The notes under the pieces: model-generated | The model's input: the letters and a program-made list of their open reading frames with translations, nothing else | Told to the model about the DNA's origin: nothing | The model's database searches: none | From: a virus | IMG/VR virus record: IMGVR_UViG_3300041955_001107 | Location: 1-33,025 of that record | Strand: one strand, 5' to 3' | DNA length: 33,025 nucleotides | Translations under genes and position numbers: made by a program | Shown here: piece after piece, positions 1,718-23,297 of the stretch | Position numbering within the stretch: position 1 is the stretch's first letter | Layout: the number at the start of each line of letters is the position of its first letter

Positions 1718-3608
1718 GCAAATCTATTCTGCCGCCGCCGCGGCCGGCGCGCGCCCGGACCCGCTGCTCACCATCTCGCAGTGGGCCGACCGCTATCGCT
1801 GGCTCTCGCAACGGGCGTCGGCGGAACACGGTCGCTGGCGTACGGAGCGCACGCCGTATCTCCGGGAGATCATGGATTGCCTTTCGCCGATGTCGCCTAT
1901 CGAGCGCACTGTGTTCATGAAGGGCGCGCAGATCGGCGGCACCGAGTGCGGCAACAACTGGATGGGCTACATCATCCATCAGGCGCCGGGGCCGATGATG
2001 GCGGTGCAGCCCACCGTCGAAATGGCGAAGCGCAACTCGAAGCAGCGCATCGACCCGCTGATCGAGGAGTCGGAGGTACTTCGGAAGCTCGTGCGCGATC
2101 CACGGTCGCGCGACTCCGGCAATACAGTTCTCTCGAAGGACTTTCCGGGCGGCGTGTTGGTGATGACCGGTGCGAACAGCGCCGTCGGCCTGCGGTCGAT
2201 GGCTGCGCGGTATCTGTTCCTGGACGAAGTGGACGCCTATCCCGGCGATGTGGAAGGCGAGGGCGACCCGATCACGCTGGCCATGGCGCGCACGCGGACG
2301 TTCGCCAGGCGGAAGGTATTCCTTTGCTCGACGCCCAAGATCACCGGCATGAGCCGGATCGAGGCGGCGTATGAAGAGAGCGATCGGCGTAAGTACTTCG
2401 TGCCGTGCCCGACTTGCCGCGACTTCCAGATTCTGAAATTCGCGCAACTCCGGTGGCCGAAGGGCAATCCGCAGGGGGCCGTTTACGTTTGCGAGCATTG
2501 CGGCCAGGAGATCCAGAACCATCAGAAGCACTGGATGCTGGCTCAGGGCGAGTGGCGCGCGGGCACGAAGGGCGATGGCAAGACGGCGGGCTTCCACATC
2601 TCCAGCCTCTACAGCCCGGTTGGCTGGTTCTCTTGGGGCGATGCAGCCAAGCAGTTCGAGCAGGCACAGAAGAACTCCTCGCTGCTGCAGGTATTCGTCA
2701 ACACCGTGCTGGGCGAGACGTGGACCCAACTCGGCGAAGCTCCGGATTGGCAGAAGCTCTACGACCGCCGCGAAGACTACAAGGTCGGGCTGGTCCCGCG
2801 CGGCGGCCTGTTCCTTACGGCGGGCGCGGATGTTCAGAAGGACCGTATCGAGGTCGAGATCGCCGCCTGGGGCCGCGGAAAGGAATCGTGGTCGGTCGAT
2901 TACCGGGTGTTCGAAGGCGACACGTCGCGCCCGGCGGTGTGGGAGAAGCTCACCGGCCTGCTGAACGAAACCTTCACGACCGCGTCGGGGCTGGAGTTGC
3001 CCATCATGCAACTCGCGATCGATTCCGGATTCGCGACCACGGAGGTCTACCATTGGGCGCGGCGGCAGGGCGGGCGCGTGCTGGTGATCAAAGGCGATTC
3101 ACGCGCACCGGCGCTGCTCGGGGCGGCGTCGCCCGTGGATGTGGGCCCGTTGGGTGCCAAAATCAAACGCGGCATTCGCGTATGGCCGGTCAACTCCGGC
3201 ATGGCGAAGGAAGAGTTGTACCGTTGGCTGCGCCTCGAGCGGCCCACCGACGAGGACATTGCCGGCGGTGTGCCGTTTCCGGCAGGCTACTGCCACTTTC
3301 CGAAGTACAGCGAGGAGTACTTCAAACAGATCACTGCTGAGCAGTTGGTGACGAAGCTCGTCAAAGGCTACCGGCGGCATGAATGGCAGAAGATGCGCGA
3401 GCGCAATGAAGCGCTCGATTGCCGCGTGTATGCGCGCGCGGCGGCAGGCCGGATCGGTATTGATCGGTTCCAGGAGAAGCACTGGGCCGACTTCGAGCGC
3501 CGAGTGGGCACCCCTCCGGTAAAGGAAGTAAAACAAGCGCAGCAACCGCCTCGCCCGGGCGGGACGCAGACTGCGCGTAACCGGGTGCGCTTCAGGATGG
3601 CTCTCTAA
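1692..3608 (+). CDS. Phage terminase large subunit (lambda GpA family)
   Basis: This 638-aa ATPase/nuclease matches the length of GpA-type large terminases. The Walker A-like motif is KGAQIGGTE (77-85), Walker B is YLFLDEVD (174-181), and the coupling motif CSTPK is at 212-216. A zinc knuckle is formed by C239/C242 and C267/C270, as in other GpA proteins. The C-terminal nuclease has acidic residues in GADVQKDRIEVE (D380) and LAIDSGF (D444), and NEALDCRVYARAA near the end. It packages concatemeric DNA through the portal and makes the cos-type cuts. It overlaps the small terminase, and its TAA shares a base with the ATG of the gpW gene, indicating translational coupling. Confidence 0.97.
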   Translation: MISPTLTAEQIYSAAAAAGARPDPLLTISQWADRYRWLSQRASAEHGRWRTERTPYLREIMDCLSPMSPIERTVFMKGAQIGGTECGNNWMGYIIHQAPGPMMAVQPTVEMAKRNSKQRIDPLIEESEVLRKLVRDPRSRDSGNTVLSKDFPGGVLVMTGANSAVGLRSMAARYLFLDEVDAYPGDVEGEGDPITLAMARTRTFARRKVFLCSTPKITGMSRIEAAYEESDRRKYFVPCPTCRDFQILKFAQLRWPKGNPQGAVYVCEHCGQEIQNHQKHWMLAQGEWRAGTKGDGKTAGFHISSLYSPVGWFSWGDAAKQFEQAQKNSSLLQVFVNTVLGETWTQLGEAPDWQKLYDRREDYKVGLVPRGGLFLTAGADVQKDRIEVEIAAWGRGKESWSVDYRVFEGDTSRPAVWEKLTGLLNETFTTASGLELPIMQLAIDSGFATTEVYHWARRQGGRVLVIKGDSRAPALLGAASPVDVGPLGAKIKRGIRVWPVNSGMAKEELYRWLRLERPTDEDIAGGVPFPAGYCHFPKYSEEYFKQITAEQLVTKLVKGYRRHEWQKMRERNEALDCRVYARAAAGRIGIDRFQEKHWADFERRVGTPPVKEVKQAQQPPRPGGTQTARNRVRFRMAL

Positions 3609-3820
3609 TGGCATTCACCCAGTCCGACCTCGATGCTCTCGACGCCGCGCGTAAGCAGGGGGCGAGGCGAGTCCGGTTTCAGGACCGCGAGTTTGAATTC
3701 GATTCCGTGGATGACTATTTGAAACTCCGGAATCTGATCCTGAACGACATCGCCCAGCAGTCCGGGCCGCAGCAAGTGCGCCAGGTGCGAATCTACACGA
3801 CCAACGGTTGGGGCCACTAA
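3608..3820 (+). CDS. gpW-like head-tail joining protein
   Basis: A 70-aa protein sits between large terminase and portal, exactly where lambda W lies. It begins with a helix (SDLDALDAARKQGARRV), then a short beta segment with RVRFQDREFEFDS, then a second helix (VDDYLKLRNLILNDI), matching the alpha-beta-alpha plan of gpW. In lambda, gpW seals the portal after packaging and provides the platform for gpFII. The ATG overlaps the terminase stop (TAATG). The last ~15 residues, with a Gln/Arg-rich stretch, are longer than I would expect for gpW. Confidence 0.85.
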   Translation: MAFTQSDLDALDAARKQGARRVRFQDREFEFDSVDDYLKLRNLILNDIAQQSGPQQVRQVRIYTTNGWGH

Positions 3821-3826
3821 AGCGCC

Positions 3827-5431
3827 GTGCCAATTGAAACGTTGATGACGCTCGCCCGCCAGGCCGGGCATGAGCCGATGCCGATCCCCGTCCTGCGCGT
3901 GCCGCGCACCCGCGCCATGGGGACGTTCCCGTTCGACGCCGCCGGGCGCGGGCGTCGCGGCATCGGATGGAATCCGCCGTTTCTCGGCCTCAACACGCTC
4001 CTGTTTTCGCACGGCCTGGAGCTGCAGGCGCGGAACCGGGACGCGGTTCGCAACAGCGCGTGGGCGGCTGCGGCCGTGGATTCGTATGTGGCGAATGCAA
4101 TCGGGCGTGGGATTCGCCTGGTGCCTCACCATCCGGACGATAAGATCCGCGACCTGATCACCAGGAAGTGGAACCGATGGACTCGCGAATGCGACGTCGA
4201 GTACGACCCGCGGAATCCAGCGTCAGGCCAGACGGATTTTTACGGCCAGCAGATGGTGATTGCCCGCGAGGTCATGGAGGCGGGCGAGTGCTTCGTGCGG
4301 TTCCGGCCGCGCTCGCCAAAGGAAGGCCTCACGGTTCCGCTGCAACTGCAACTCATCGAAGCCGAGCAACTGCCGCTGTGGCGCACGGCCGTCGAGCAGA
4401 TGCCACCCAAGAATTCCGTCCGGTGTGGCATCGAGTTTCAGACCGATGGCCGGCGCGCGGCGTACCACTTCTGGAAAGCGCATCCGGGCGAAACGATGTT
4501 CTTCCCGATGGAGGCGCTGTCGGTGGAGCGCGTGCCAGCCACCGAGGTGCTGCACGTCTACAAGCCGATCCGCGCCGGCCAGTTCCGGGGGCAGCCGTGG
4601 CTTACTTCGGTAATCGCGAAGCTCTACGAGTTGGAGCAATACACAGACGCCGAGATCGTCCGCAAGAAACTCGCGGCGATGATCACCGGGTTCATCACCC
4701 AGGCCAGCCCGGACAATCCGATCATCCCCCCGGACCAGTATCAGAACGGGCCGGGCCAGACGGAGCCGGGGACGCAGATCAGCAAGCTCGAACCTGGCAC
4801 CTTTCAGGTACTGAACTTCGGCGAAGAGGTGTCGTTCGCCGAGGCCAAGGACAGCGGCGATTTCAAATCGTTCATCCGAACCTGCTTGCAAGCGTTTTCG
4901 AGCGGCGCCGGTCTCGCCGAGTACCAGATCAGCGGTGACCTGTCGGGGATTAATTATTCTTCGATCCGCGCTGGCCTGCTGGAGTTCCGCCGCAAGTGCG
5001 AGCAGTATCAGCATTCGGTTTTCATCTTCCAGGTCTGCCACCCGGTTTATAAACGCTGGCTGCGGGAGGCGATGCTGGCGCTGGTGTTCGGCATTGACCT
5101 GCTGAACGCGTACAGCAAAGATCCCGAGCCATTCGAGGAAGTGCAGTGGGTAACGCCCGGCTGGCCGTGGGTGGACCCCGAAAAGGACATCAAAGCTTCC
5201 AACGACGCCATCCGCAGTGGCCTGTCCACGCGCTCTGCCGAGGTGGCGGCGCAAGGGCGCGACGCCGGTGCGGTGGATGCGGAGCAGACAGTGGACAACG
5301 AGCGAGCCGACAAGCTTGGGCTCTCTTACGACAGCGATGGCCGGAAGGTCCTGACCGGGCGCAACGCCGGATTGACAGAAGGCGAGATCCAGCAGGATGC
5401 CAGCAAGGGCGAGGTGGACGTGAAGCCATGA
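3827..5431 (+). CDS. Phage portal protein (lambda gpB family)
   Basis: A 534-aa protein follows gpW after 6 nt and starts at GTG 3827; ATG 3845 is an alternative. Family marks include NPPFLGLNTLLF near residue 45, a conserved early helix with RNSAWAAAAVDSYVANAIG, the region LQLIEAEQLP, then ATEVLHVYKPIRAGQFRGQP (the HVF/HVYxPxRxGQxRG signature of gpB portals), and GDLSGINYSSIRAGLLEFRR (the YSSxRAGLLE signature). The portal forms the dodecameric ring at one capsid vertex through which DNA enters and leaves. Its TGA overlaps the protease start (ATGA), typical of coupled head genes. Confidence 0.96.
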   Translation: MPIETLMTLARQAGHEPMPIPVLRVPRTRAMGTFPFDAAGRGRRGIGWNPPFLGLNTLLFSHGLELQARNRDAVRNSAWAAAAVDSYVANAIGRGIRLVPHHPDDKIRDLITRKWNRWTRECDVEYDPRNPASGQTDFYGQQMVIAREVMEAGECFVRFRPRSPKEGLTVPLQLQLIEAEQLPLWRTAVEQMPPKNSVRCGIEFQTDGRRAAYHFWKAHPGETMFFPMEALSVERVPATEVLHVYKPIRAGQFRGQPWLTSVIAKLYELEQYTDAEIVRKKLAAMITGFITQASPDNPIIPPDQYQNGPGQTEPGTQISKLEPGTFQVLNFGEEVSFAEAKDSGDFKSFIRTCLQAFSSGAGLAEYQISGDLSGINYSSIRAGLLEFRRKCEQYQHSVFIFQVCHPVYKRWLREAMLALVFGIDLLNAYSKDPEPFEEVQWVTPGWPWVDPEKDIKASNDAIRSGLSTRSAEVAAQGRDAGAVDAEQTVDNERADKLGLSYDSDGRKVLTGRNAGLTEGEIQQDASKGEVDVKP

Positions 5432-6999
5432 GGAATCTGACTCGTGTGGCATCGCGGTTTGTGAACACGCCACTCATGATTCACCCGCCCAAGCTGGACG
5501 TCATGGTGCAGGCGCTGGGCCCGCGCCTGGGGCTTATTCCGGGAGCACCGGAGACTGCCCATCCGTTCGCCGCGTCGTACATCGAGCAGGGTGATGACGG
5601 CGATTATCAGGTGATCGACGGCATCGCGATCATTCCGATCCAGGGCGTGCTGACGAAAGCGGAATCCTGGGTTTCGGCGCTGAGTGGTTGCAGTTCCTAT
5701 GCGCAGATTGGGGGCTACCTTCAGGACGCGGTGAACGACGCCGGAGTGCGGGCGATCCTCTTGCAGGTGGATTCGCCGGGCGGCGAGACCACGGGATGCC
5801 TTGAACTGTCCGACTACATGTACTCTCTTCGCGGCCTGAAGCCCATCTTTGCGGTCGCCGACGATTTCGCGTTCTCGGCGGCCTACGCTCTTACCAGCGC
5901 GGCCGACAGGATCTTCGTCACGCGCATGGGAGCGGTCGGGTCCGTTGGCGTCGTCGTGCTCCACACGGAAGATTCGAAGTTCAACGGCGAGCAGGGGTTC
6001 AAGTACACCTACATCTTCAAAGGCGACAAGAAGGTCGATGGGAATCCGCACGAACCGCTGTCGGAGCGGGCCGAGAAAGACATCCAGTCCGAAATTGACC
6101 GGCAGTACGACCAGTTCGTAGCAACGGTGGCGCGGAACCGGAAGGCCAGCGCTGAAAAGATCATCGCGACGCAGGCCGGGGTGTGCTGGGCGGAGAATGC
6201 CGTTCCGCTTCTGGCCGACGCGGTCGGAACGCTTGGCGATGCCATGAACGCGCTTCGTCAACTGCTGGGCGAGCCGGTCCAAAAATCAACGGCGGCGATT
6301 GCCGCAATATCCACAACCAAGGAGGTAACAGCAAGTATGCCCGATGAAACGACGATCGCCACCGAGGGTAAGAAGCCCAGTGATGGCGACGAGAAGACAA
6401 ACAACGAGCCGAAGTTCTGCCACGCGTGCGGAACCAAGCTTCACGCGGATGCGACATTCTGCCACGCCTGCGGCGAGAACGTAAAGGGCGACGCCAAGAA
6501 ACCGGAAGGCATGGCCCCGCTCACTGGCCTGGCTGCCGTGGCCGGCGAAGCGTTGAAGATGCGCCCCGAAGTTGACATCGAAGCCATTGGCGCACTGTGC
6601 AAAATGGCCGGATGTCCCGATAAGGCCGCAGAACTCCTCACCAAGAAGAAATCCACCGGCCAGTACTTCAGCGTGGCGGAAATCAGCGAGGAGCTGACTG
6701 CCGCCCGCGTGATCGAAAGCGAGAGGAGCATGATTACATCCCACGTCAACCCGAACCAGGGCGCGGTTGGCTCGCTTCAGGAAATTGAAGCGCAGGCCAC
6801 CAGCTACGCCCGGCAGAATCGCGGCAAAGAGACTTCCAATCTTTACGCCGAAAGCGGTACCACCAAGCTGACCAAGGAGCGCGCATACGCCCTGATGCTC
6901 GAAGAGCATCCCGAGGTTTACGGCGCGTTCGTGGCGCAACACAACGCGAAGGGCCTGATCGCCACGCTCGAGCGGGCCGGCGTTCGCCTCGCCCGGTAG
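5428..6999 (+). CDS. S49 family head maturation protease with C-terminal scaffold region (gpC-like)
   Basis: The 523-aa frame starts at ATG 5428, overlapping the portal stop. The open frame extends upstream inside the portal gene but has no reason to start there. Residues ~60-240 are an S49/SppA-like serine protease: GIAIIPIQGVL, QVDSPGGE (DSPGG 115-119), ADDFAFSAAYAL with probable nucleophile Ser150, GSVGVV, and the lysine-bearing KGDKKVDGNP segment with Lys202 as the likely general base. Residues ~300-523 are the assembly scaffold, also made separately from an internal start. The protease cleaves scaffold and probably portal or capsid during prohead maturation. A CxxC...CxxC zinc ribbon (CHACG twice) lies at the start of the scaffold part, which is unusual. 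Confidence 0.93.
   Translation: MRNLTRVASRFVNTPLMIHPPKLDVMVQALGPRLGLIPGAPETAHPFAASYIEQGDDGDYQVIDGIAIIPIQGVLTKAESWVSALSGCSSYAQIGGYLQDAVNDAGVRAILLQVDSPGGETTGCLELSDYMYSLRGLKPIFAVADDFAFSAAYALTSAADRIFVTRMGAVGSVGVVVLHTEDSKFNGEQGFKYTYIFKGDKKVDGNPHEPLSERAEKDIQSEIDRQYDQFVATVARNRKASAEKIIATQAGVCWAENAVPLLADAVGTLGDAMNALRQLLGEPVQKSTAAIAAISTTKEVTASMPDETTIATEGKKPSDGDEKTNNEPKFCHACGTKLHADATFCHACGENVKGDAKKPEGMAPLTGLAAVAGEALKMRPEVDIEAIGALCKMAGCPDKAAELLTKKKSTGQYFSVAEISEELTAARVIESERSMITSHVNPNQGAVGSLQEIEAQATSYARQNRGKETSNLYAESGTTKLTKERAYALMLEEHPEVYGAFVAQHNAKGLIATLERAGVRLAR
6319..6326 (+). promoter_or_regulatory. Strong internal ribosome binding site for the scaffold
   Basis: AAGGAGGT is a near-complete anti-16S match inside an open reading frame, 10 nt before ATG 6337. 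Coding constraint alone would not require it, which supports real internal initiation. Confidence 0.75.
6337..6999 (+). CDS. Nested in-frame scaffolding protein (Nu3-like)
   Basis: Inside the protease gene, AAGGAGGT (6319-6326) stands 10 nt before an in-frame ATG at 6337, a much stronger ribosome site than most in this operon. Translation gives 220 aa identical to the C-terminal part of the protease gene product. This copies the lambda C/Nu3 design, in which the scaffold is made from an internal start at higher level than the protease fusion. The product has a Cys4 zinc ribbon (about residues 27-47) and then helical, charged sequence with EELTAARVIESE, QEIEAQATSYARQ and TLERAGVRLAR, fitting a scaffold that oligomerises and binds coat protein. 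Internal initiation is inferred from the ribosome site. Confidence 0.75.
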   Translation: MPDETTIATEGKKPSDGDEKTNNEPKFCHACGTKLHADATFCHACGENVKGDAKKPEGMAPLTGLAAVAGEALKMRPEVDIEAIGALCKMAGCPDKAAELLTKKKSTGQYFSVAEISEELTAARVIESERSMITSHVNPNQGAVGSLQEIEAQATSYARQNRGKETSNLYAESGTTKLTKERAYALMLEEHPEVYGAFVAQHNAKGLIATLERAGVRLAR

Positions 7000-13530: not shown

Positions 13531-16500
13531 ATGGCAGACCAAGCGGAACGAGTAATTCTCGAAGCCGAGGACCAGGTCAGCCCGATAACGGACAAGGCCA
13601 ACGCCGCCCTCGACGGCTTCGAGAAGAAAGCGGAATCGTCGCACGGCAAGGTCATCCGGATTTCGGATCAGACCCGGTCCTCGGTCCAGCGGCTCATCGC
13701 CTCTCTCGAAAAGCAGGCCGAGACTTACGGCAAGAGCGGCGTGGACCGGTTGATCACCCAGCGGGATCAACTGTTACAGCGGTACAACCGCGAGCCACAG
13801 GCCATCGATGCGATCACCAGGTCCTACGAAAAGATGATCGCAATGGAGGAGAAGGCCGCGCGCGAAGCTCTCGCGGTCAAAGCGGCCAAGGAAGCCGAGG
13901 AGGCGTTGCGTAAGCAGGCCGAATCGATCACATCGTTCGGCGAGCGCGTCAGCCAGTTCATGGAGAACCCGCTCCAGGGGGCGAAGGGCGCACTCTCGTC
14001 CGTGCTTACGGCTCTCGGTCCGTTTGGAGTCGCGGTCGCGACCGGCGCGGCTGTGCTCGGCACCATTGCGGTTTCCGCATTCGAGGCGGCGAAGAGTCTC
14101 GGCGAGTACGGCACGCGCGTGAAGGACGCGGAACTGCGCACCGGTTTGGCCGCGAAGGAAGTCGGGCAGTTCGGTTTTGCGGCGCGCGCGGTTGGGCAGG
14201 ATATCTCGATTGTTGAGCGCCTCATGCGCGGTCTCTCCCAGGCTGCCGACGACAATTCCCAGGAGGGCGAGAAGGTGCGGACCACCCTGCGCGGGATGGG
14301 CATCGATTTTCACACCGCCACCGGAGAGATGAAGCCCACCTCCGAGATTCTGGTTGAGATTTCCGAGGGTTTGAACAAACTCCCGGAAGGGCTTCAGCGG
14401 GACGCGGCCGCCATGGACCTGTTCAAGCGGGTGGGCGTGGAGGCGATTCCGTTCATGACGGAACTCAACGAGAACCTGCGCGTGGCCCACGAGCAGGGCT
14501 TCGGGCCGACCGAGGAAGACATCCGCCGCTTTTCCGAATACCAGCGCGAAGTGACCGTGCTCGAAACCAAGTGGGACTCGCTGGTCCGCAAGTTCAAAGA
14601 AGGGCTGGTCGTTACCGTGACCTGGGTCGGGAAGGGCGTCGATTGGCTCCTCAACAACATCTCGGCTGCCGGCGATGATGAACGGCAGCGCCGCGAAGAG
14701 GAACAGGCGATGCAGGATGCCGCCGACATTCGGGCGGCGGGCGGCATCGGGGCGAAGATGTCGATCTCCGGACATCGGCAGGAAGTGGCCGACTTGGAAC
14801 GCCGGGCGCCGGACATCATGAAGAATCGCGATGCCACCTTGAAGCAAATCGAGGATTTGCGGGCCCAACAGCAGGGGCTGGTCGGCGATTTCGGCATTCT
14901 GCAAGCCATCGCTCCCACGCGCGACGAGGAGGCACGCGCGAAGCGTGCGGACGACATTCAGGGCCAGATTCAGCAGTTGCAGAAGATGCTGGATGATGCC
15001 GAGGCAGCCACCAAGAGGAAAGACCTGCGGGCCGGCAAGGAGGAGACGGATCGTATTCGCGCCCGATTCTTCGGCACGCACGAGGGCATGGAGAAGGCAT
15101 ACGCCGACGCTAAGAAGGATGTCGAGCGGCTCCAGAAGCAACTGCTCGAACCGGACAAGCCGTTGACGAAGGCTCAAGCGCAGGATCTGGGCCAACAACT
15201 CCAGACCGCCGAAGCTACCGAAGCCCGCCGCAAGGCGGCGCTGGACGCGACCGCAAAGGGCGCGGAGCAGCTCAAGGATTTCCGTCGCCAGGCGGCAGAG
15301 TTCGAGAAGAAGGGTGACGAAGCCGAACTCGATGCAATAGGCAAGATCTACTTTCAGCGGGACCAACTTCTGAAACAGGCCGCGCAAGTGAAGGCGTCGG
15401 AATCGGAGATTGCGGCGATCCGCAAGGCGGCCGACGAGCAGGCAGCCGTCATATCGAAGAAGGCATGGGAGGAATTTGAGAAGTACGACGAGAAGCAGCG
15501 AGCCGAGCAGAGCAAGAAAATGCTCGCCCTCATGATGCCTTCGAAGGAGCAGATGAAGGAGTGGGAGGAAGGCTTCGCCGCGCAGGAACGGATCGCGGAC
15601 ATCGGAGTCCAGGAGCAACGGGACGAACTGCGGCGGCGCGCCGCGCGATCTGCGCGCATGACGGAACTGACTGCCGGGCAGGAAACGCCGATGGCAATGT
15701 CCGAGGCCGAAAAGCGGGAGATGGCGGCGCGAAAAGACGAGGCAGCAGCGCAGGAAGCCTACCAGATCAGACTCGATCTGGCCGTGCAGTTGGCGGGCAT
15801 CGAAGCGGAGCGGATATCGAAAGAAGAGAACGCGGCGAAACGCTCCGTCCTGGCGGCGCAGGCGCAGAAGGATCTGTTCACTGAAATCGCCCAGGCGCAG
15901 GATCAGTTCGAGGAAAAGGAGGCGCAGCTTCAGCAGAAACGCCAGCAGGAGATCCAGTCGCAGTTCGACAACCTGCAGAAACAGGCCGAGAAGCTAATCG
16001 ACGTTCTATTCACGAAGCCTAAGAACTTCGGCAAGGACCTGGTGAGCACGATCCACACCGCCGTGCTCAAGCCGGTTACTGAGACGCTGGGCGGCGCGGC
16101 GGCGAATATTCTCCATCCGATCATCTACGGGCCGGACGGACAGGGTGGACTAAACGGGATGTTGCGCGGCACATCGAAGGACCCGGTGCGCGTGTCCACT
16201 GACCAGAACACCGCCGCTACCATGCAGAACAGCGCGGTGATGGCGGCGTTGACGGGCTTTCTTGCGGCGGGCATGGGAGTTGCGGCGCCCTCGCTGCCTG
16301 GCGGCGCGGCGGGCATTTTGAGCATTTCGGTTCCCTCGATTTCGGCGCCCGCCACGATGAGCATGCCCGCCTCGCCGGGCGGCTACTCCCCGGCTCCATG
16401 GAGTTCGCGCGGCGCGGGTGTTCCGCTATCTTCCGGTGCCAGTGGTGGAGCGGCTCCGGTGTCCGGGCCCAGTTTCGCCGACTTGGTGAATCTCCCCACC

Positions 16501-17466
16501 ACTCATTCGACCGCCGGCATGAACCCGCTGTCGATGATCCTTGGAGGTGGCAGCACTGGGGCGAAGGGTGGGACCTCGAGCATTTACAGCCTGTTCTCCA
16601 AGGGCGGGCTTTCGAAGTCGCTGTCGAGCCTGAAGAGTTCGGTGTGGAATCAGGATGCATGGGACGCCTATCCGAGCACCACGGGCGGGTATCTTGCCGG
16701 CGGCCTGCAGGGCGCGGCGACTTCACCAGCCGCCGGTGCTGCCGGGATGATGCTCGCGACCCATGGGCTGATTACGGATGCCGGCACATGGAGTGGCGCT
16801 CTTCAGGGGGCCGCTGGCGGTGCATTGATCGGAGATCAGATCGGCGGGCCGCTGGGCGCGGGGGTGGGCGCTTCGCTTGGCTTCGAGGTTGGCGCCATCG
16901 AGAAACTGCTCGGCGTGAAGTCGCCAGCCCAGAAAGCGCATGACGACATCAAGTCGATCTATAACGTGAGCATCCCGACCAACAGCGGGACCATCAAGCA
17001 GGTCGTTCAAATCGCACAGTCGCAGTTCGGCGGCGATATTGCGGTGGCCGTGAGGTCGCCGAGCGTCCGTCAACTTGTGATGCTGTACTCTGAAGCCACG
17101 GGTCAGAAGATGCCGTTGTCGGCCACGACGCCGTATGCCGGCAGTCTCGTGGAGCAGGGCGGCAAGGTCTACCAACAAGCCAGCTACCAAGATGGCCAGG
17201 CTCATGTATACGCCTCGAATATCCCGACGCTGGGCGGCATCGCGGCGGGCACCTATCCCACGCCGGGAAACCCGAACACCGCTGGCGGCAGCGGCGCGAC
17301 CTACCTCTCGCTGAACATCAGCGGCAACGACGCGGCGAACTTCATGACCGGACAGTTCGTCACGCCGCAGTTCGTGACCGACCAAGCGATGGCGGCGCAG
17401 TATTCCAGTTACGGGCGCACGCAGCAATCGGCGAACATGCAGCTTCCCGGCCTGACGGTGGCGTGA
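13531..17466 (+). CDS. Tail tape measure protein
   Basis: At 1311 aa this is the second longest gene in the structural operon, placed after the chaperones. The first ~130 residues are coiled coil (repeated EK/AE/KQ heptads such as KMIAMEEKAAREALAVKAAK). A hydrophobic membrane-like segment lies at ~154-184 (LGPFGVAVATGAAVLGTIAV). A long charged coiled-coil region follows (LQTAEATEARRKAALDATAK, EKEAQLQQKRQQEIQSQFDN), then a Gly/Ser/Ala/Pro-rich low-complexity region around 890-1060 and a hydrophobic glycine-rich stretch near 1090-1130 (GALIGDQIGGPLGAGVGASL). The protein sets tail length and enters the host envelope at infection. No lysozyme or peptidase motif was recognised in it. Confidence 0.93.
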   Translation: MADQAERVILEAEDQVSPITDKANAALDGFEKKAESSHGKVIRISDQTRSSVQRLIASLEKQAETYGKSGVDRLITQRDQLLQRYNREPQAIDAITRSYEKMIAMEEKAAREALAVKAAKEAEEALRKQAESITSFGERVSQFMENPLQGAKGALSSVLTALGPFGVAVATGAAVLGTIAVSAFEAAKSLGEYGTRVKDAELRTGLAAKEVGQFGFAARAVGQDISIVERLMRGLSQAADDNSQEGEKVRTTLRGMGIDFHTATGEMKPTSEILVEISEGLNKLPEGLQRDAAAMDLFKRVGVEAIPFMTELNENLRVAHEQGFGPTEEDIRRFSEYQREVTVLETKWDSLVRKFKEGLVVTVTWVGKGVDWLLNNISAAGDDERQRREEEQAMQDAADIRAAGGIGAKMSISGHRQEVADLERRAPDIMKNRDATLKQIEDLRAQQQGLVGDFGILQAIAPTRDEEARAKRADDIQGQIQQLQKMLDDAEAATKRKDLRAGKEETDRIRARFFGTHEGMEKAYADAKKDVERLQKQLLEPDKPLTKAQAQDLGQQLQTAEATEARRKAALDATAKGAEQLKDFRRQAAEFEKKGDEAELDAIGKIYFQRDQLLKQAAQVKASESEIAAIRKAADEQAAVISKKAWEEFEKYDEKQRAEQSKKMLALMMPSKEQMKEWEEGFAAQERIADIGVQEQRDELRRRAARSARMTELTAGQETPMAMSEAEKREMAARKDEAAAQEAYQIRLDLAVQLAGIEAERISKEENAAKRSVLAAQAQKDLFTEIAQAQDQFEEKEAQLQQKRQQEIQSQFDNLQKQAEKLIDVLFTKPKNFGKDLVSTIHTAVLKPVTETLGGAAANILHPIIYGPDGQGGLNGMLRGTSKDPVRVSTDQNTAATMQNSAVMAALTGFLAAGMGVAAPSLPGGAAGILSISVPSISAPATMSMPASPGGYSPAPWSSRGAGVPLSSGASGGAAPVSGPSFADLVNLPTTHSTAGMNPLSMILGGGSTGAKGGTSSIYSLFSKGGLSKSLSSLKSSVWNQDAWDAYPSTTGGYLAGGLQGAATSPAAGAAGMMLATHGLITDAGTWSGALQGAAGGALIGDQIGGPLGAGVGASLGFEVGAIEKLLGVKSPAQKAHDDIKSIYNVSIPTNSGTIKQVVQIAQSQFGGDIAVAVRSPSVRQLVMLYSEATGQKMPLSATTPYAGSLVEQGGKVYQQASYQDGQAHVYASNIPTLGGIAAGTYPTPGNPNTAGGSGATYLSLNISGNDAANFMTGQFVTPQFVTDQAMAAQYSSYGRTQQSANMQLPGLTVA

Positions 17467-17470
17467 TCCA

Positions 17471-17887
17471 ATGCCAGGAAATCTCGTGCAATCCGCCCCC
17501 AACGGGGTGATGCCCGCTTCGCTGTGCACCGCGTTTACGGAGTTGCGCGAATACGTGCAGCTCCAGAACCAGTTTCACGACGGGACGATCCAGCGGTCGC
17601 AGCTCGCGCAGACCTCCCGCCGTACGTTTCGGCTCAGCAAGCGATTGAGCGCATCGGTGCTCTCGGCGCTCTACAGCTTCTGGGTATCCCAGAATGCCGG
17701 GCTGACCCCGTTCGCCTTCTACAACCCGTTCGACGTGGCGTCCGGCCAGCAGATCGGCAGCAACTACGATTCCACCGGCAACAACACGCAGGGACGCGTG
17801 ACAGTGGTGTTCCGCGGCAACTGGGCACAGGCGACGGATATCGCGCGGACGAACGTGCAGGGCCTCGAACTTGTCGAGGTGGCGTAG
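17471..17887 (+). CDS. Minor tail protein (gpM-like)
   Basis: A 138-aa protein starts 4 nt after the tape measure, the place of lambda M. It shows the order of tail-tip M/DUF2460-type proteins: an early strand around QNQFHDGTIQRSQ, FRLSKRLSASVLSALYSFWV, then PFAFYNPFDVASG, RVTVVFRGNW, and a C-terminal VQGLELVEVA. The same order is found in the N-terminal domain of the giant protein at 18879 (QFKRPNLNWAETNQLKAFWE ... GLNLIEVVD), so two M-like modules are present. It probably sits between the tape measure end and the tail-tip ring. Confidence 0.72.
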   Translation: MPGNLVQSAPNGVMPASLCTAFTELREYVQLQNQFHDGTIQRSQLAQTSRRTFRLSKRLSASVLSALYSFWVSQNAGLTPFAFYNPFDVASGQQIGSNYDSTGNNTQGRVTVVFRGNWAQATDIARTNVQGLELVEVA

Positions 17888-17950
17888 GTGTCTACATCTG
17901 GGAAATCGGGGAATAGAATGGAGTAGAGTAAGGACGAGGCTGTTGCAGCT

Positions 17951-18778
17951 ATGGGGAAGTGGCAGACGACCTACGCCACGGAATGCGGACATGAGGTCCA
18001 CATCCTCGAAGAGTGGGACCGGCCACGGTTCTGCAAAGAGTGCAAAGCAGCCAATGACGCCAAGTGGTACGACAAATCCTGCGAGGATTGCGGAGCCAAC
18101 ATCCACGTCTGCCGGGACTGGGACCACGAGCCCCGCGTATGCAAAACCTGTAAGGCGGCCAGAGAAGCCAAGTGGTACGACAAATCCTGCGAGCACTGCG
18201 GTAAGACAATACGAGCAAACCGCGATTGGGACCACCCACCCAAGTTCTGTGACGAGTGCAAGCGCGAATACTCCCCAAAGAACGCCGAGTGTGAACACTG
18301 CAACAACACTTTCACGATCCCAATGGGAACCCAGATCAACTGCAAAGAGCACGGCTGGGACCTCCCCAAGAAATGCCCGGAGTGTAGAGAGAAGTTCCGC
18401 CACAAGCCCTTCAAGACGGTACGGGAGGAGACATTCTTCGGGAAAACGGTGTTTCGGACGTACAACAGCATCGGACAGCTCATCTCCGAATCAGCCGACG
18501 AGAAGACGTTCTGGACCGGCACCGACCAGCGACGCCACAAAAGCCCGACAGGGAACACTATCGGGATCACGCGCAAGAAGGAGCGGTTCTGGACAGGCAC
18601 ACCCTACCGGGAAACCACAGGTCCCGACGGATCGGTAAAATCCACCGCCGAGGAGAAGACGCGTTTGCTCACCGGACAACAGTACACGGAGAGCACCGGT
18701 GGGGCTTCCGGGACCAAGCACACCACGACAACGAAGACGTCGTGGTGGACCGGGAAGACATACCGAGAAACCAAGTAA
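17951..18778 (+). CDS. Unrecognised multi-zinc-ribbon protein with 26-residue TG repeats
   Basis: This 275-aa protein interrupts the tail-tip genes. The N-terminal ~150 residues hold 17 cysteines, mostly as CxxC pairs (C28/31, C44/47, C64/67, C80/83, C100/103, C114/117, C142/145), built from a repeated 36-residue ribbon unit (AKWYDKSCEDCG... and AKWYDKSCEHCG...). The last ribbon (CEHCNNTFTIPMG, GWDLPKKCPECREKF) resembles the probable zinc-ribbon family zf-trcl. From 161 on a 26-residue unit recurs at 161, 186, 212, 238 and 264, each starting with an aromatic/leucine pair and T/G (TFFGKT, TFWTGT, RFWTGT, RLLTGQ, SWWTGK), suggesting stacked beta-hairpins. No tail role is evident; it looks like an inserted accessory (moron) gene. 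GC is about 53-58% in the three 60-base lines counted, seemingly lower than its neighbours. Confidence 0.75.
   Translation: MGKWQTTYATECGHEVHILEEWDRPRFCKECKAANDAKWYDKSCEDCGANIHVCRDWDHEPRVCKTCKAAREAKWYDKSCEHCGKTIRANRDWDHPPKFCDECKREYSPKNAECEHCNNTFTIPMGTQINCKEHGWDLPKKCPECREKFRHKPFKTVREETFFGKTVFRTYNSIGQLISESADEKTFWTGTDQRRHKSPTGNTIGITRKKERFWTGTPYRETTGPDGSVKSTAEEKTRLLTGQQYTESTGGASGTKHTTTTKTSWWTGKTYRETK
18059..18193 (+). repeat. 27-bp perfect direct repeat within the zinc-ribbon gene
   Basis: The 27 bases at 18059-18085 recur exactly at 18167-18193, 108 bp (36 codons) apart and in frame. Both encode AKWYDKSCE, the start of a CxxC ribbon. DNA-level identity, not just protein similarity, indicates a recent tandem duplication or gene-conversion event between ribbon units. 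Confidence 0.85.
18721..18747 (+). other. 9-bp perfect inverted repeat near the 3' end of the zinc-ribbon gene
   Basis: CACCACGAC (18721-18729) and GTCGTGGTG (18739-18747) are perfect inverted arms around 9 bases. They encode part of the last repeat unit. A run of seven T lies at 18784-18790, 36 nt further on. The distance is too great for a classical intrinsic terminator, so a function is uncertain. Confidence 0.3.
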
Positions 18779-18878
18779 AACCCTTTTTTTCGCAGCCCAG
18801 CCCGTTCGCCCTTTGAATCCATCCGATCTTCACGGGCACACCTGAAGGTCGTGCTCGCCGAATCCGTTTCCACAAGCC

Positions 18879-21800
18879 ATGTCCGACACCATCGGCCGCA
18901 TCACCGTCCCCACGGTGATCAACTCCGGCCAGGCATTCCCGCTCACCACACAGTACCCCTTCGGCTTCTCCGTCGAGCGCCCGGTGATCGTTCACCGCTT
19001 CGGCAGCCTCGACGCCAAGCAGGAGCAGCGGTATTACGTCGGCATCGGCCCCCGCAAGTTCCAGTTCAAACGGCCCAACCTCAACTGGGCGGAAACGAAC
19101 CAGCTCAAGGCGTTTTGGGAAGCGATGCAGGGGCCGTGGAAGGCGTTCACCTACGCCGTCCCCAATCCCGATGGAACCACCACCGGCGTGCTCGTCACCT
19201 TCGAGCAGACGCCAATCTCCTTCGAGTACCTCCGCAACGCGGCCCAGGTCGGACTGAACCTCATCGAGGTCGTCGATCCGACACAAGCCCCCACCTACGC
19301 GGTCAATTCCACCTGCCTGCGTTTTCCCTCTACCGCGCTGTCTACGGCGCTGCTGTCCGAAGTACAGCAGATCGTTCCCCTGGTGCACATCCGCGTGCGC
19401 GAATCCGCGGTCGCTGACATCTATCTCTCCGACCGGCGCGTCACGATCGCCGGGCAGCTTTACCTGCCGCGGCTCATCGGTATCGGTGAGCCGGGCTCCG
19501 ACGTGCTGATCGCGCAGGACATCAAAGGCACGTCCGATAACGTCCGCTTCACCTTCGGCAACGGCGACCGCGTGATGACGCAACTCGCCAACGACACTGA
19601 CCTGAAGTACGCTGAGATCGATCTTTGCCTGTTCCACGTCAACTCTGGGGTTCTGCTGCAACTGTGGAAGGGCGTCATCCAGAACTTCACCAGCGATGGG
19701 ACGCCGATCTTCCCGGTGACGTGCTCCGACGGCTTCTTCCAGATCATGAACCAGTACCCCGAGCGGCAACTTAGCCGCCAGTGCTGGAAGACCTACAACG
19801 ATGGCGTGAACTGCCCGTGGGCGTCGAAGGGCCGGAGCGCTGCGGCGGTAACGGCCGCGGGCGGCGATCCTACAAGCTGCGACTACTACCTCGAATCGGC
19901 GAACGGTTGCCAGGTCCACGGCATGGCTCCGTACTTCGGCGCCCAGCAGTCCGACCCGCAAGGCGTCGTTATCAAGGACGATTCCACTGGGTTTCTCGGC
20001 TTCGGCCGCAACACTGTCACAGCAACGTCGATTATCTCGGATACGGTCTGGGGGCTCTCGCTGCCGGAGATCTGGTGCAATAGCGGCGGCAATCCGCTTT
20101 ATGCTTTCATGGCCAACGCGCTGATGGTCGCGTATCGCGATGAATCGGGCTATGCCGACTCGCTCGGTATTCTCAGCGCCGGGCCTCTTGGCGGGTTCAC
20201 CGCATCGATGGTCGTCACGAACGCGGATGGCTACCGCTACGTGGTCGCTCCCATGGTCGATGGGTACCTCTGGCAGGGCTTGAAGGTTGACGGCAACCTG
20301 AACATCACGAAATACCAGCCGGGCATGGGGCTGCGGTACATCACCGGCAGCGATCCGGCAAATTCGAGTACCGATTATTTCTCGCTCGGCCAAGGAACGC
20401 CCCAGGTTTGGGAGCCGAACGTGTATGCGGCGGGCACGGCGGCGTGCGAGATCCGCATCGTCAAATCCACCACTATTCAGCCGAGCACGCCCGACCAGCA
20501 CCAGATGACCGTTCCGATCGACTACGGCATGTGGGGCTGGACGTGGGACCAGAACGGCAACCGGACGGCCATCAGGGGACTCATCAACCCGTTCTGGATC
20601 GCCGTCAACATGCTACTGCGCGCGATGGGTTTGTATGGTGATCCGTCCAGCGGCTCGAATCCCGCCGGCGGCTCCGGCCCGGCTTCGTCTGCGCAGCTCG
20701 CCACGTTCGTGCTGCCGTCGCTGATCGTGGGCGATGGAAGCGGTGCAGCCGAGATCGCAGCGGACCAGGTCGCAGCCATCCTAGGAACCGGCGTCGAGAC
20801 GCAGTTCCAATTCCAGGGGATCATCAGCAGCCAGAAGCCGTTCCGCGACTGGCTCACCGAGGTGCTGAACTGCTGCCTGGGCTTCTACACCTGGGAGTTC
20901 GGCAAGCTCAAGCTCGGCTGCCGGATAAACGCCAGCGCCGTGGATGCTTACACCCTCGCCAACTCGCTGTTTCAAAGCTTGCGGTTGACACCGATCCAAG
21001 CCGGGTTCGAACACCTGGTGATTTCATTCGCGGACGTTGCCTATCAGTACCAGGCGAACACGGCTGAGTATTGCGACAAGGGCCACGCGGCCTACTACGG
21101 GCGGGCCGGATCTCCGCTCACGAGCCAGATGCACTCGGTGGGGTGCTCGACGCTGAGCCAGGCGCTGCGCATCGGCGCAACGCGCACGCGCGAAGAGATC
21201 GGCGGCGTGCAGTACACGGAGTGGCGCGACGCGCGCACCGCTGCCTGGCAGACCACGCTGCTCGGCCTCGGTAACGAAGTCGGACAAGTTGTCTCGATGA
21301 CGCATCCGGACGTCCCCGGACTTCACGGGACGTGCGACGTCACCGGCACCTCGGTCACCTGGGCCAGCGGTGACGCCTTTGACACGTCCATGAAGAACAA
21401 GGAAACTGTGATCAACGGCGTGCAGGTCTTGATCACGGGCTATACCACGGACCCCACCTACCAAACGGTGACCGGTTTGCTGCTGGCGTCCGCGCCGGGC
21501 GACGGGACCAACCTTCCGTTCCAGATCATCACCATGTCCTTCAGGATTCAGCGGTGGACGCTGAAAAAGGACTGGTCGGTGCAGATCGAGGGGCAGACCG
21601 TCACCGACTCGATGTACGACCTGGACGTTGGCCCGAAGCCGATGGACGTGGTGCCCGCCCCGCTGCCGCCGCTGTTCTATCAGATTCCGCTCGGCCCGGC
21701 GTGGGCGCCGTACCAGATCCAGGCGGCGGCGAATGACGCGCTGTTTCCGGGCGAGTGGACTTTTGATACCAACCAGTCCTACGCGCAGATGGCCGACGGC

Positions 21801-23297
21801 AGCATGCTCGCAAACCTGGTGGTGACCGGGAAGTTGCCGGTGAACGAGTTCAGCGCCACCGGCGCGGGTGCGCCCGGAATTGGATCGATCTCACAGGCTA
21901 CGACAGGCGGGTCGTTGCCAGCCAACGTGACGCTGCGCGTGGCCATCTGTGCGATCGATTCAAGCGGGCTTCCTTCGGCCCCGTCGAATATCGCCATCAT
22001 CGGGACCTCGGCCTCCGGAACGGACATTTTCACCTTGGAAGGCATCACGTGGCCGGCGGTCGCGGGCCTCGTTCCCTATGTGCTGTTCGTCGCGACGCAA
22101 GACGACCTAATCTGTGCGCAGGCAACCGGAACGCTGACGGCGGGCGCGGGTAACACGTACACTCCCGGATCGATTACGTTCGGCGGGCCGCTGGTGCGCT
22201 CGACGTGGGCACTGCCGTCGCCGTATGTCAGCAAGGTCCGGCTGAAAGCCAAGCATGAGATTCATGGCGGGATCATCGGCGCGCCCGTCGATAGCGTCTC
22301 AACCGGGGCGCTCGTGGTCGGGTACCTGAAAGGCAGCCCGCCATCCAGTAATCCTTCGTTCACGCCGGTGGGCCGCATCATCTCGATCATCGGCAGGCCG
22401 GAAAGCGCCACGCCGTACTTCAGTGCGACGGTCACTTCGTGGGATTCCGGCACGGGAACTATCGGGGTCACTCCCGACCCGAACGGCATCGTGCAGGCGG
22501 GAGACTGCCTGGTGGTCCGGTACAACGCCGACGCCTCGAATTCCGCGAACCTCACCTCCATCACGGATTCCGGGTGCCAGAACATCGCCTATCCCACGGG
22601 GATGACGCCCGGAGCGGAAGTCGGCAACCTGATCCGCGTAATTCAAGGCGCCTCGCGCGGCACGCCGCCGCGCAAGATCGTCTCCAATACGGCGACCACC
22701 CTCACGTGGGACCTCCCAATGCTCATCAATCCCGGCGATGTGTGGATCGTCGAGGAACCGACGTGGCCGTACTCCTGCGACACGACATCTCTCGACAACG
22801 GCAACCCGCTGGCGGTGACAACGATCAACATGCCCACCAGCAATTTCGTGGACGAGACCCTCGTGATCGCAGGCTTCACGGTGGACGTGAACGGCAACGA
22901 GTTGCCCGACGGCGATGCGCCGATCCGCGAGGATTGGGTGTTCGGAGCGGAAGGACTATCGAAGGTTGCAGGGCTCGTGTTCCAGATGCAAGGAACGCTG
23001 GGCGTCGAATCCAACGCGGCGCAACCGCTGTATTTGAATGGCCCGGTTACAGTCGGCGACGTGAAGGGTTATGTGCAGGCCGCGCCAACAGGCTCCGGGA
23101 TCACGTTCACGATTTATGTCGGCACCACGGCGTGGCTCACATTGACCATTCCGGCAGGCCAGACCGTAGTGGTCGCCACGCCGTCGCAGATTGGCGCCCT
23201 CTCGCAGATCCCGGCCAATACAGCGGTCTCAATCGGCATCACGGCAGTCGGTACCACATTTCCGGGATCAGCCCTTTCGGTGTTCATCTACTCGTAA
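18879..23297 (+). CDS. Giant tail-tip fusion: M-like + gpL-like (DUF2163) + hub (J-like)
   Basis: This 1472-aa protein appears to combine several lambda tail-tip proteins. Residues 1-~135 are a second gpM/DUF2460-like module ending GLNLIEVVD. Residues ~165-345 match DUF2163/gpL: VHIRVRESAVADIYLSDRRV, DLCLFHVNSGVLLQLWKGVI, PVTCSDGFFQIMNQYPERQL, then cysteines C302, C312, C334 and C344. Lambda gpL-type proteins bind an iron-sulfur cluster through four cysteines in this place. A J-like baseplate hub follows (FRDWLTEVLNCCLGFYTWEF, GHAAYYGRAGSPLTS, EWRDARTAAWQTTLLGLGNE), then Ig/FnIII-like beta modules (VAICAIDSSGLPSAPSNIAI) and a variable C-terminus. It would form the tip complex that opens the tail. 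There is no strong ribosome site before ATG 18879. No separate K (NlpC/P60) or I gene was recognised. Confidence 0.8.
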   Translation: MSDTIGRITVPTVINSGQAFPLTTQYPFGFSVERPVIVHRFGSLDAKQEQRYYVGIGPRKFQFKRPNLNWAETNQLKAFWEAMQGPWKAFTYAVPNPDGTTTGVLVTFEQTPISFEYLRNAAQVGLNLIEVVDPTQAPTYAVNSTCLRFPSTALSTALLSEVQQIVPLVHIRVRESAVADIYLSDRRVTIAGQLYLPRLIGIGEPGSDVLIAQDIKGTSDNVRFTFGNGDRVMTQLANDTDLKYAEIDLCLFHVNSGVLLQLWKGVIQNFTSDGTPIFPVTCSDGFFQIMNQYPERQLSRQCWKTYNDGVNCPWASKGRSAAAVTAAGGDPTSCDYYLESANGCQVHGMAPYFGAQQSDPQGVVIKDDSTGFLGFGRNTVTATSIISDTVWGLSLPEIWCNSGGNPLYAFMANALMVAYRDESGYADSLGILSAGPLGGFTASMVVTNADGYRYVVAPMVDGYLWQGLKVDGNLNITKYQPGMGLRYITGSDPANSSTDYFSLGQGTPQVWEPNVYAAGTAACEIRIVKSTTIQPSTPDQHQMTVPIDYGMWGWTWDQNGNRTAIRGLINPFWIAVNMLLRAMGLYGDPSSGSNPAGGSGPASSAQLATFVLPSLIVGDGSGAAEIAADQVAAILGTGVETQFQFQGIISSQKPFRDWLTEVLNCCLGFYTWEFGKLKLGCRINASAVDAYTLANSLFQSLRLTPIQAGFEHLVISFADVAYQYQANTAEYCDKGHAAYYGRAGSPLTSQMHSVGCSTLSQALRIGATRTREEIGGVQYTEWRDARTAAWQTTLLGLGNEVGQVVSMTHPDVPGLHGTCDVTGTSVTWASGDAFDTSMKNKETVINGVQVLITGYTTDPTYQTVTGLLLASAPGDGTNLPFQIITMSFRIQRWTLKKDWSVQIEGQTVTDSMYDLDVGPKPMDVVPAPLPPLFYQIPLGPAWAPYQIQAAANDALFPGEWTFDTNQSYAQMADGSMLANLVVTGKLPVNEFSATGAGAPGIGSISQATTGGSLPANVTLRVAICAIDSSGLPSAPSNIAIIGTSASGTDIFTLEGITWPAVAGLVPYVLFVATQDDLICAQATGTLTAGAGNTYTPGSITFGGPLVRSTWALPSPYVSKVRLKAKHEIHGGIIGAPVDSVSTGALVVGYLKGSPPSSNPSFTPVGRIISIIGRPESATPYFSATVTSWDSGTGTIGVTPDPNGIVQAGDCLVVRYNADASNSANLTSITDSGCQNIAYPTGMTPGAEVGNLIRVIQGASRGTPPRKIVSNTATTLTWDLPMLINPGDVWIVEEPTWPYSCDTTSLDNGNPLAVTTINMPTSNFVDETLVIAGFTVDVNGNELPDGDAPIREDWVFGAEGLSKVAGLVFQMQGTLGVESNAAQPLYLNGPVTVGDVKGYVQAAPTGSGITFTIYVGTTAWLTLTIPAGQTVVVATPSQIGALSQIPANTAVSIGITAVGTTFPGSALSVFIYS

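Follow-up and report, generated by a model that had tools for sequence, protein, structure and literature searches.

A zinc-ribbon gene as probable exchangeable cargo of a hypervariable slot between two tail genes of temperate Terriglobia phages

The window analyzed here, the 33,025 nucleotides of IMG/VR virus record IMGVR_UViG_3300041955_001107, carries a gene for a zinc-ribbon protein (P0001) between two tail genes, here called A and B (Table 1). The gene is probably exchangeable accessory cargo, held in a hypervariable hotspot of temperate phages of Terriglobia (Acidobacteriota). The slot between A and B is almost certainly an accessory hotspot, and it is quite likely that this hotspot is mainly antiviral. 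That P0001 itself is antiviral and defends the lysogen is something we infer tentatively, at somewhat less than an even chance.

Table 1. Positions in the window of the zinc-ribbon gene, its flanking tail genes and the slot.
Feature	Position	Strand	Description
P0001 cargo gene	17951..18778	+	275 aa, zinc-ribbon / 26-aa-repeat protein; ORF translation, relatives L002-L005
P0001 N-terminal half	17951..18400	+	four Cys-rich ribbon units, 36-aa period
P0001 C-terminal half	18413..18775	+	five 26-aa repeats; predicted ten-strand antiparallel beta meander
Gene A, left anchor	17471..17887	+	138-aa minor tail protein, weak DUF2460 match, E 0.027
Gene B, right anchor	18879..23297	+	1472-aa tail hub-like protein, weak Phage-tail_3 match, E 0.06
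Tape measure protein (TMP) gene, upstream of A	13531..17466	+	phrog_12506, E 1.8e-7
Hypervariable slot (accessory hotspot), A to B	17888..18878		junction comparison across related phages
Sigma-70-like promoter match TCTACA-17-TAGAAT	17891..17919	+	sole match within 17800-18900; 0.1 expected by shuffle

The slot between genes A and B and its cargo

IMG/VR was searched with two queries, gene A and the N-terminal part of gene B, and each returned 77 loci. The distance from A to B was taken at 78 junctions, with L002 and L045 treated as the single contig that they are and the tandem L037 and L040 contributing two junctions each. Fourteen of the 78 junctions are empty (at most 12 nt, with the stop codon of A at or beside the start of B), and the other 64 hold 150-4690 nt, most inserts being 0.6-4.7 kb. 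By DNA similarity the occupied slots fall into 50 cargo groups, a set that includes L147 and excludes the two loci with the window's cargo (L002 and L003). Related cargo proteins were found across different contigs only for L052-L061 and L063-L109. Identical inserts occur in the pairs L090-L093, L042-L043, L086-L087 and L053-L105, each of which may be one phage sampled repeatedly. Among the 78 junctions, the zinc-ribbon gene is present only in the window, L002 (= L045) and L003. The earlier note had described A and B as minor tail genes that usually lie side by side. This holds for the 14 empty junctions, which include L051 and L106, about 93% identical in A and B, but most relatives have an insert, and it is almost never the P0001 gene.

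The inserts run from the stop codon of A to the ATG of B, and no shared border motif or recombination site was seen at either end. Of the first cargo genes, 25 share the strand of the tail genes and 24 are on the other. The GC content averages 0.554 in the inserts vs. 0.617 in the anchors, and 50 of the 51 inserts have the lower value (Wilcoxon p 5e-10). The lower GC noted earlier for the P0001 gene was borne out: the gene has 0.576, the window as a whole 0.624, and either neighbor gene 0.63. In this late structural operon, independent genes of either orientation are tolerated, inserted precisely where one reading frame stops and the next starts. The earlier view that P0001 is not a tail component is supported by the absence of its gene from nearly all related phages, the empty junctions, and the random strand of the cargo. 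The promoter-like site in the window falls between the stop codon of A and the cargo ATG, and the same hexamers are found in L002. Upstream of the cargo overall, such sites occur in 5 of 43 cases vs. 1.7 expected, a weak excess; the consensus used is that of E. coli and may be a poor fit for Acidobacteriota.

Pfam assignments of the sister cargo given here are matches above cut-off. L065 (2277-5831) carries a complete Lamassu pair, matched by PADLOC to LmuA (1.3e-17) and LmuB (2e-88), with a Cap4 nuclease in Pfam. TIR_2 domains are found in L056, in L046 together with AAA_35, and in L038, where a 1138-aa TIR protein with 13 WD40 repeats (2505-5921) is the sole large cargo gene. GmrSD_N occurs in L052 and L053, and the L061 cargo is 94% identical to that of L052. 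PLD-type cargo was found in L147 (PLDc_2 with RE_NgoFVII) and L071 (PLDc_2), FRG in L047, DUF4365 in L054, a UvrD helicase in L055, and PD-T4-7 in L070 (PADLOC). Other cargo with a Pfam assignment comprises HD (L062), NYN (L057), a kinase (L049), ankyrin (L086), and HEAT (L075). The non-defense cargo includes an HNH_3 and NUMOD4 homing endonuclease (L081), a histidine kinase (L078), and a leucine carboxyl methyltransferase-like protein (L050). Also counted as non-defense is a 4.7-kb base-modification cassette in L042 (1311-6000) and L043, which encodes ADDT/aGPT-Pplase3 (alpha-glutamyl/putrescinyl thymine pyrophosphorylase-like) and thymidylate synthase; an HTH/toxin-antitoxin-like ORF pair is also visible in it by eye. 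Most short single-gene cargo, P0001 included, received no assignment, and ten small sister cargo proteins compared singly with PADLOC gave one match. The assignable sister cargo is largely defense-type.

The slot could also be a generic moron space with no functional theme, in which case P0001 would serve host physiology (lysogenic conversion) and have nothing to do with other phages. Many cargo proteins do lack a defense match, and the kinase, methyltransferase-like and other cargo would be at home in such a space. The complete Lamassu pair, three TIR proteins, GmrSD_N in two groups, FRG, and PLD among 50 groups nevertheless make a strong theme, and we consider this explanation rather unlikely. 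The PADLOC models matched number 137 over 64 cargo proteins vs. 50 over 61 chromosomal Terriglobia proteins, a rough contrast in which redundant models are counted and which falls short of a formal test of enrichment. Many of the models displayed for the chromosomal control are of one type (PD-T4-6, kinase).

Phage-encoded antiviral hotspots have been described in P2-like phages, P4-like satellites, Vibrio K139-like phages and Bacillus prophages, as small loci (~1-5 kb) flanked by two conserved phage genes, adjoining cos or the repressor and showing high gene turnover (Rousset et al., 2022, PMC9122126). The A-B slot is likewise small and of high turnover, is carried by temperate phages, and holds diverse defense-type cargo, with many genes of unknown function. 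It differs in lying between two tail genes, in its Acidobacteriota host, and in that its defense roles are predicted from sequence. As far as sequence can be checked, the locus fits every part of the definition of an antiviral hotspot, i.e., turnover, size, a temperate carrier, and recognizable putative defense systems. We did not find a hotspot between tail genes, or one in an Acidobacteriota host, in the open-licence papers searched. The antiviral hotspots described so far occupy few sites, for the most part in Proteobacteria and Bacilli; the one described here lies among the tail genes of Acidobacteriota phages that are uncultured. Its 78 junctions yield 50 cargo sets, mostly unrelated to one another, as a ready list of candidate defense genes, the zinc-ribbon protein among them, and genes A and B are simple anchors for harvesting more cargo from metagenomes.

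Relatives of gene B are present in 20 of the 399 genomes searched from the class of the Terriglobia locus that carries a P0001 relative (L005), and none were found among 50,697 phage records in INPHARED. The closest full relative of the phage lies at the end of a 125-kb Terriglobia contig (G892; A 91%, B 89%). From translations read by eye, we take the other genes of this contig to be those of the host, among them pyruvate kinase, dihydroxy-acid dehydratase, and an NRAMP-type transporter; a large serine recombinase comes after them. The slot in G892 holds a different, 173-aa ORF on the opposite strand (GC 0.55). Six of 15 related virus records encode tyrosine integrases. The phage family is temperate, and a relative is integrated in a Terriglobia chromosome. 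A hotspot common to all Terriglobia relatives was considered and rejected. Prophages whose B is 40-48% identical hold mostly ordinary-looking structural genes between A and B, so the hotspot belongs to the closer lineage only.

The tree of gene B is poorly resolved. The three zinc-gene carriers fall in three places, and the empty L051 falls among occupied relatives. Horizontal swapping of the zinc gene between lineages is suggested, although no branch with strong support requires more than one origin. L037 (1669-6000) and L040 have the tandem order TMP-A-cargo1-B'-TMP'-A'-cargo2-B, where B' is 46 codons long, the 3' end of TMP and gene A are duplicated, and the cargo differs between the two slots. 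This arrangement is a stacked double cassette with duplicated anchors. The simplest reading of cargo movement is that cargo would be exchanged by homologous recombination in the conserved anchors A and B.

The zinc-ribbon protein and its relatives

P0001 has 17 cysteines (residues 12, 28, 31, 44, 47, 54, 64, 67, 80, 83, 100, 103, 114, 117, 131, 142, and 145) and seven CxxC pairs. The protein has a period of 36 residues over its first 150 residues and of 26 over its last 125. For the latter, the BLOSUM autocorrelation is 1.02 vs. a shuffle-maximum mean of -0.11, and 0 of 2000 shuffles reached it. The ORF and the autocorrelation thus confirm the 17 cysteines in serial CxxC ribbons and the C-terminal repeats of 26 residues that the earlier note had reported. 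The repeat starts given there (161, 186, 212, 238, and 264) precede the FG/TG motifs, at residues 163, 189, 215, 241, and 267, by two or three residues.

No clear homology to any tail or housekeeping family already described emerged: P0001 has no match in PHROG, and the Pfam models that resemble it are generic zinc-ribbon models below their gathering cut-offs. DZR (PF12773) resembles the middle ribbons (25.3 bits, cut-off 27.3) and zf_Tbcl (PF13451) the last ribbon (16.9 bits, cut-off 24). The N-terminal half shares CxxC pairs and predicted hairpin-helix units with these zinc-ribbon/treble-clef families. It differs from them in having four tandem units fused to a 26-aa-repeat sheet, and this full architecture was found at five loci only. 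NCBIfam gave nothing above cut-off, PADLOC-DB 2.0.0 gave 0 families at E 0.001, and no nuclease or other catalytic domain was recognized by Pfam or NCBIfam. A tblastn of P0001 against INPHARED and PLSDB returned weak zinc-ribbon matches and nothing else. PDB-sequence matches to C2H2 zinc-finger arrays and PKC C1 domains were dismissed, since the Cys/His spacing alone fits. P0001 is a new sequence family within the hotspot setting.

The structure prediction that the earlier note proposed gave hairpin-helix ribbons followed by a beta meander. AlphaFold2, run on the whole protein with a small alignment (pLDDT 80, pTM 0.41), predicts a beta-hairpin plus helix for each ribbon and then the meander; the C-terminal half alone is predicted as ten antiparallel strands (pLDDT 82, pTM 0.67). 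Foldseek found no match in the PDB at E 0.001 for either the whole protein or the C-terminal half, for which the best E was 0.045. In the Foldseek viral library, P0001 matched zinc-ribbon and HNH proteins, with zinc-finger HNH proteins among the best matches; these matches presumably arise via the ribbon half. VIA aligned the C-terminal half with tubby-like, BF3112, and Rhs-like sheets (112-116 residues, rmsd 3.6-6.4 A), with best Z of 7.9-8.0, which is in the range of chance. The tubby-like C-terminal domain and the Rhs, teneurin, and OspA sheets have an open antiparallel beta meander, as is predicted for this half of P0001. The comparison gave Foldseek E-values above 0.04, Z-scores typical of chance meanders, and no sequence match.

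Two of the relatives of P0001 are at the same site in phages. L002 (51 kb, IMG/VR) has a homolog of 98% protein identity, and L003, from a 3-kb contig in the bin of a Myxococcales MAG, has one of 96% and flanks of the same phage type. All three phage copies are on the tail-gene strand. Two other relatives with the full architecture lie elsewhere. L004 (44%) is on a 171-kb contig of a Kazan bacterium and has a scaffold gap within the ribbon array. L005 (53%) is on a Terriglobia contig, near a serine recombinase, a CHC2/Toprim primase, and a Schlafen AlbA_2 protein, in a mobile island. The frame of L005 is broken once, so it is a pseudogene or contains a sequencing error. A scan of ~1,060 genomes with profile A2 (380 from the phylum of the Kazan locus, 396 from that of the Terriglobia locus, and 282 from that of the Myxococcales locus) found no further full-length members beyond the seed genomes, the other matches being mostly of ~40 residues to treble clefs. 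A second viral scan with the P0001 profile returned L002 again and nothing new.

Between the phage copies, dN/dS of the P0001 gene is 0.05-0.09, which indicates purifying selection. The gene is dispensable cargo. In the same phage pairs, dS is 0.16-0.21 in the cargo gene vs. 0.46-0.68 in the flanking A and B. The lower value in the cargo is consistent with recent acquisition or exchange followed by selection.

Possible roles of P0001

Several sister cargos are recognizable defense genes, which makes P0001 a candidate new defense protein. The Lamassu (LmuA/LmuB), TIR, and GmrSD-type genes occupy the same slot in sister phages and have no sequence relation to P0001. We propose that the zinc gene would be driven in the lysogen by a promoter of its own upstream, not expressed as a late tail gene, and that its product would aid the lysogen against competing phages. 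The four-ribbon array may recognize a nucleic acid or protein of an incoming phage, and the curved sheet of 26-aa repeats may be a docking or oligomerization surface. This mechanism of ribbon binding is doubtful in its present form. Blocking or sensing is likelier than cutting, because no catalytic domain was recognized.

The moron with a host-directed function that the earlier note suggested is supported in kind, by a hypervariable accessory locus, temperate phages, and a promoter-like site directly upstream. The anti-defense function also suggested there fits less well than defense, because the assignable sister cargo is mostly defense-type; anti-restriction-like base-modification cargo was found once (L042/L043). 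In its fullest form, such a reading makes P0001 a factor of counter-defense or host take-over, expressed late with the tail genes, whose ribbons bind the host RNA polymerase, a sigma factor, or a defense protein. The tail-gene strand of all three phage copies would agree with this, and the ADDT/aGPT-Pplase3 and thymidylate synthase of L042 would modify phage DNA bases. Half of the cargo is on the opposite strand, however, which does not suit a slot meant for late co-expression, and the Kazan relative has no phage genes adjoining it when its contig is read by eye. We therefore regard a take-over factor as unlikely.

In a wider reading, the tail-operon hotspot would be a large reservoir of unknown defense systems in a widespread family of uncultured Acidobacteriota phages, and P0001 the first of a new non-enzymatic defense family with members in phages, a CPR bacterium, and a mobile island of Terriglobia. 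This wider reading is possible, and on balance we do not expect it to hold in full.

P0001 might instead be selfish cargo or a relic, i.e., an inactive or degenerate homing-type element with ribbons that bind DNA at the slot. The HNH_3 and NUMOD4 cargo of L081 in the same slot, an HNH/NUMOD-like ORF seen by eye between TMP and A in L078, and the zinc-finger HNH proteins among the best Foldseek viral matches would suit such an origin. It is improbable given that Pfam and NCBIfam recognize no nuclease domain, the C-terminal half is a beta meander with no recognized nuclease, the gene is under purifying selection, and relatives of P0001 lie at unrelated sites. An accessory virion protein (a tail-tip decoration or injected cargo) would suit the position between tail genes and the weak resemblance of the repeat half to Rhs, teneurin, and OspA sheets, but is very unlikely in view of the 14 empty junctions, two of them (L051 and L106) in phages ~93% identical in A and B, the unrelated proteins that fill the slot in either orientation, and a CxxC-rich half of the kind typical of intracellular zinc proteins.

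Other insertions near the tail genes

The spacing between TMP and A, taken as a control, does not exceed 7 nt in 58 of the 78 cases. We considered this gap as an equal hotspot and mostly rejected it, as its ~2.2-kb inserts are one conserved gene of ~700 aa with a phage-like GC. The protein has a signal peptide-like N-terminus and was seen in the TMP-A gap of L056, L058, L061, L062, L084, and L108, and not in the window; the gene is confined to one sub-lineage. Small low-GC ORFs are occasionally inserted between TMP and A (L072, L078, and L088), that of L078 being the HNH/NUMOD-like one. In the related phage G001, an opposite-strand ORF of 235 aa (L034:1698-2460, GC 0.53) directly follows B and is a second insertion site; it is not in the window. 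Lastly, one 85.6-kb contig (IMGVR_UViG_3300048503_000180; L138 and L139) has two copies of gene A ~63 kb apart, possibly from tandem prophages or a joined assembly.
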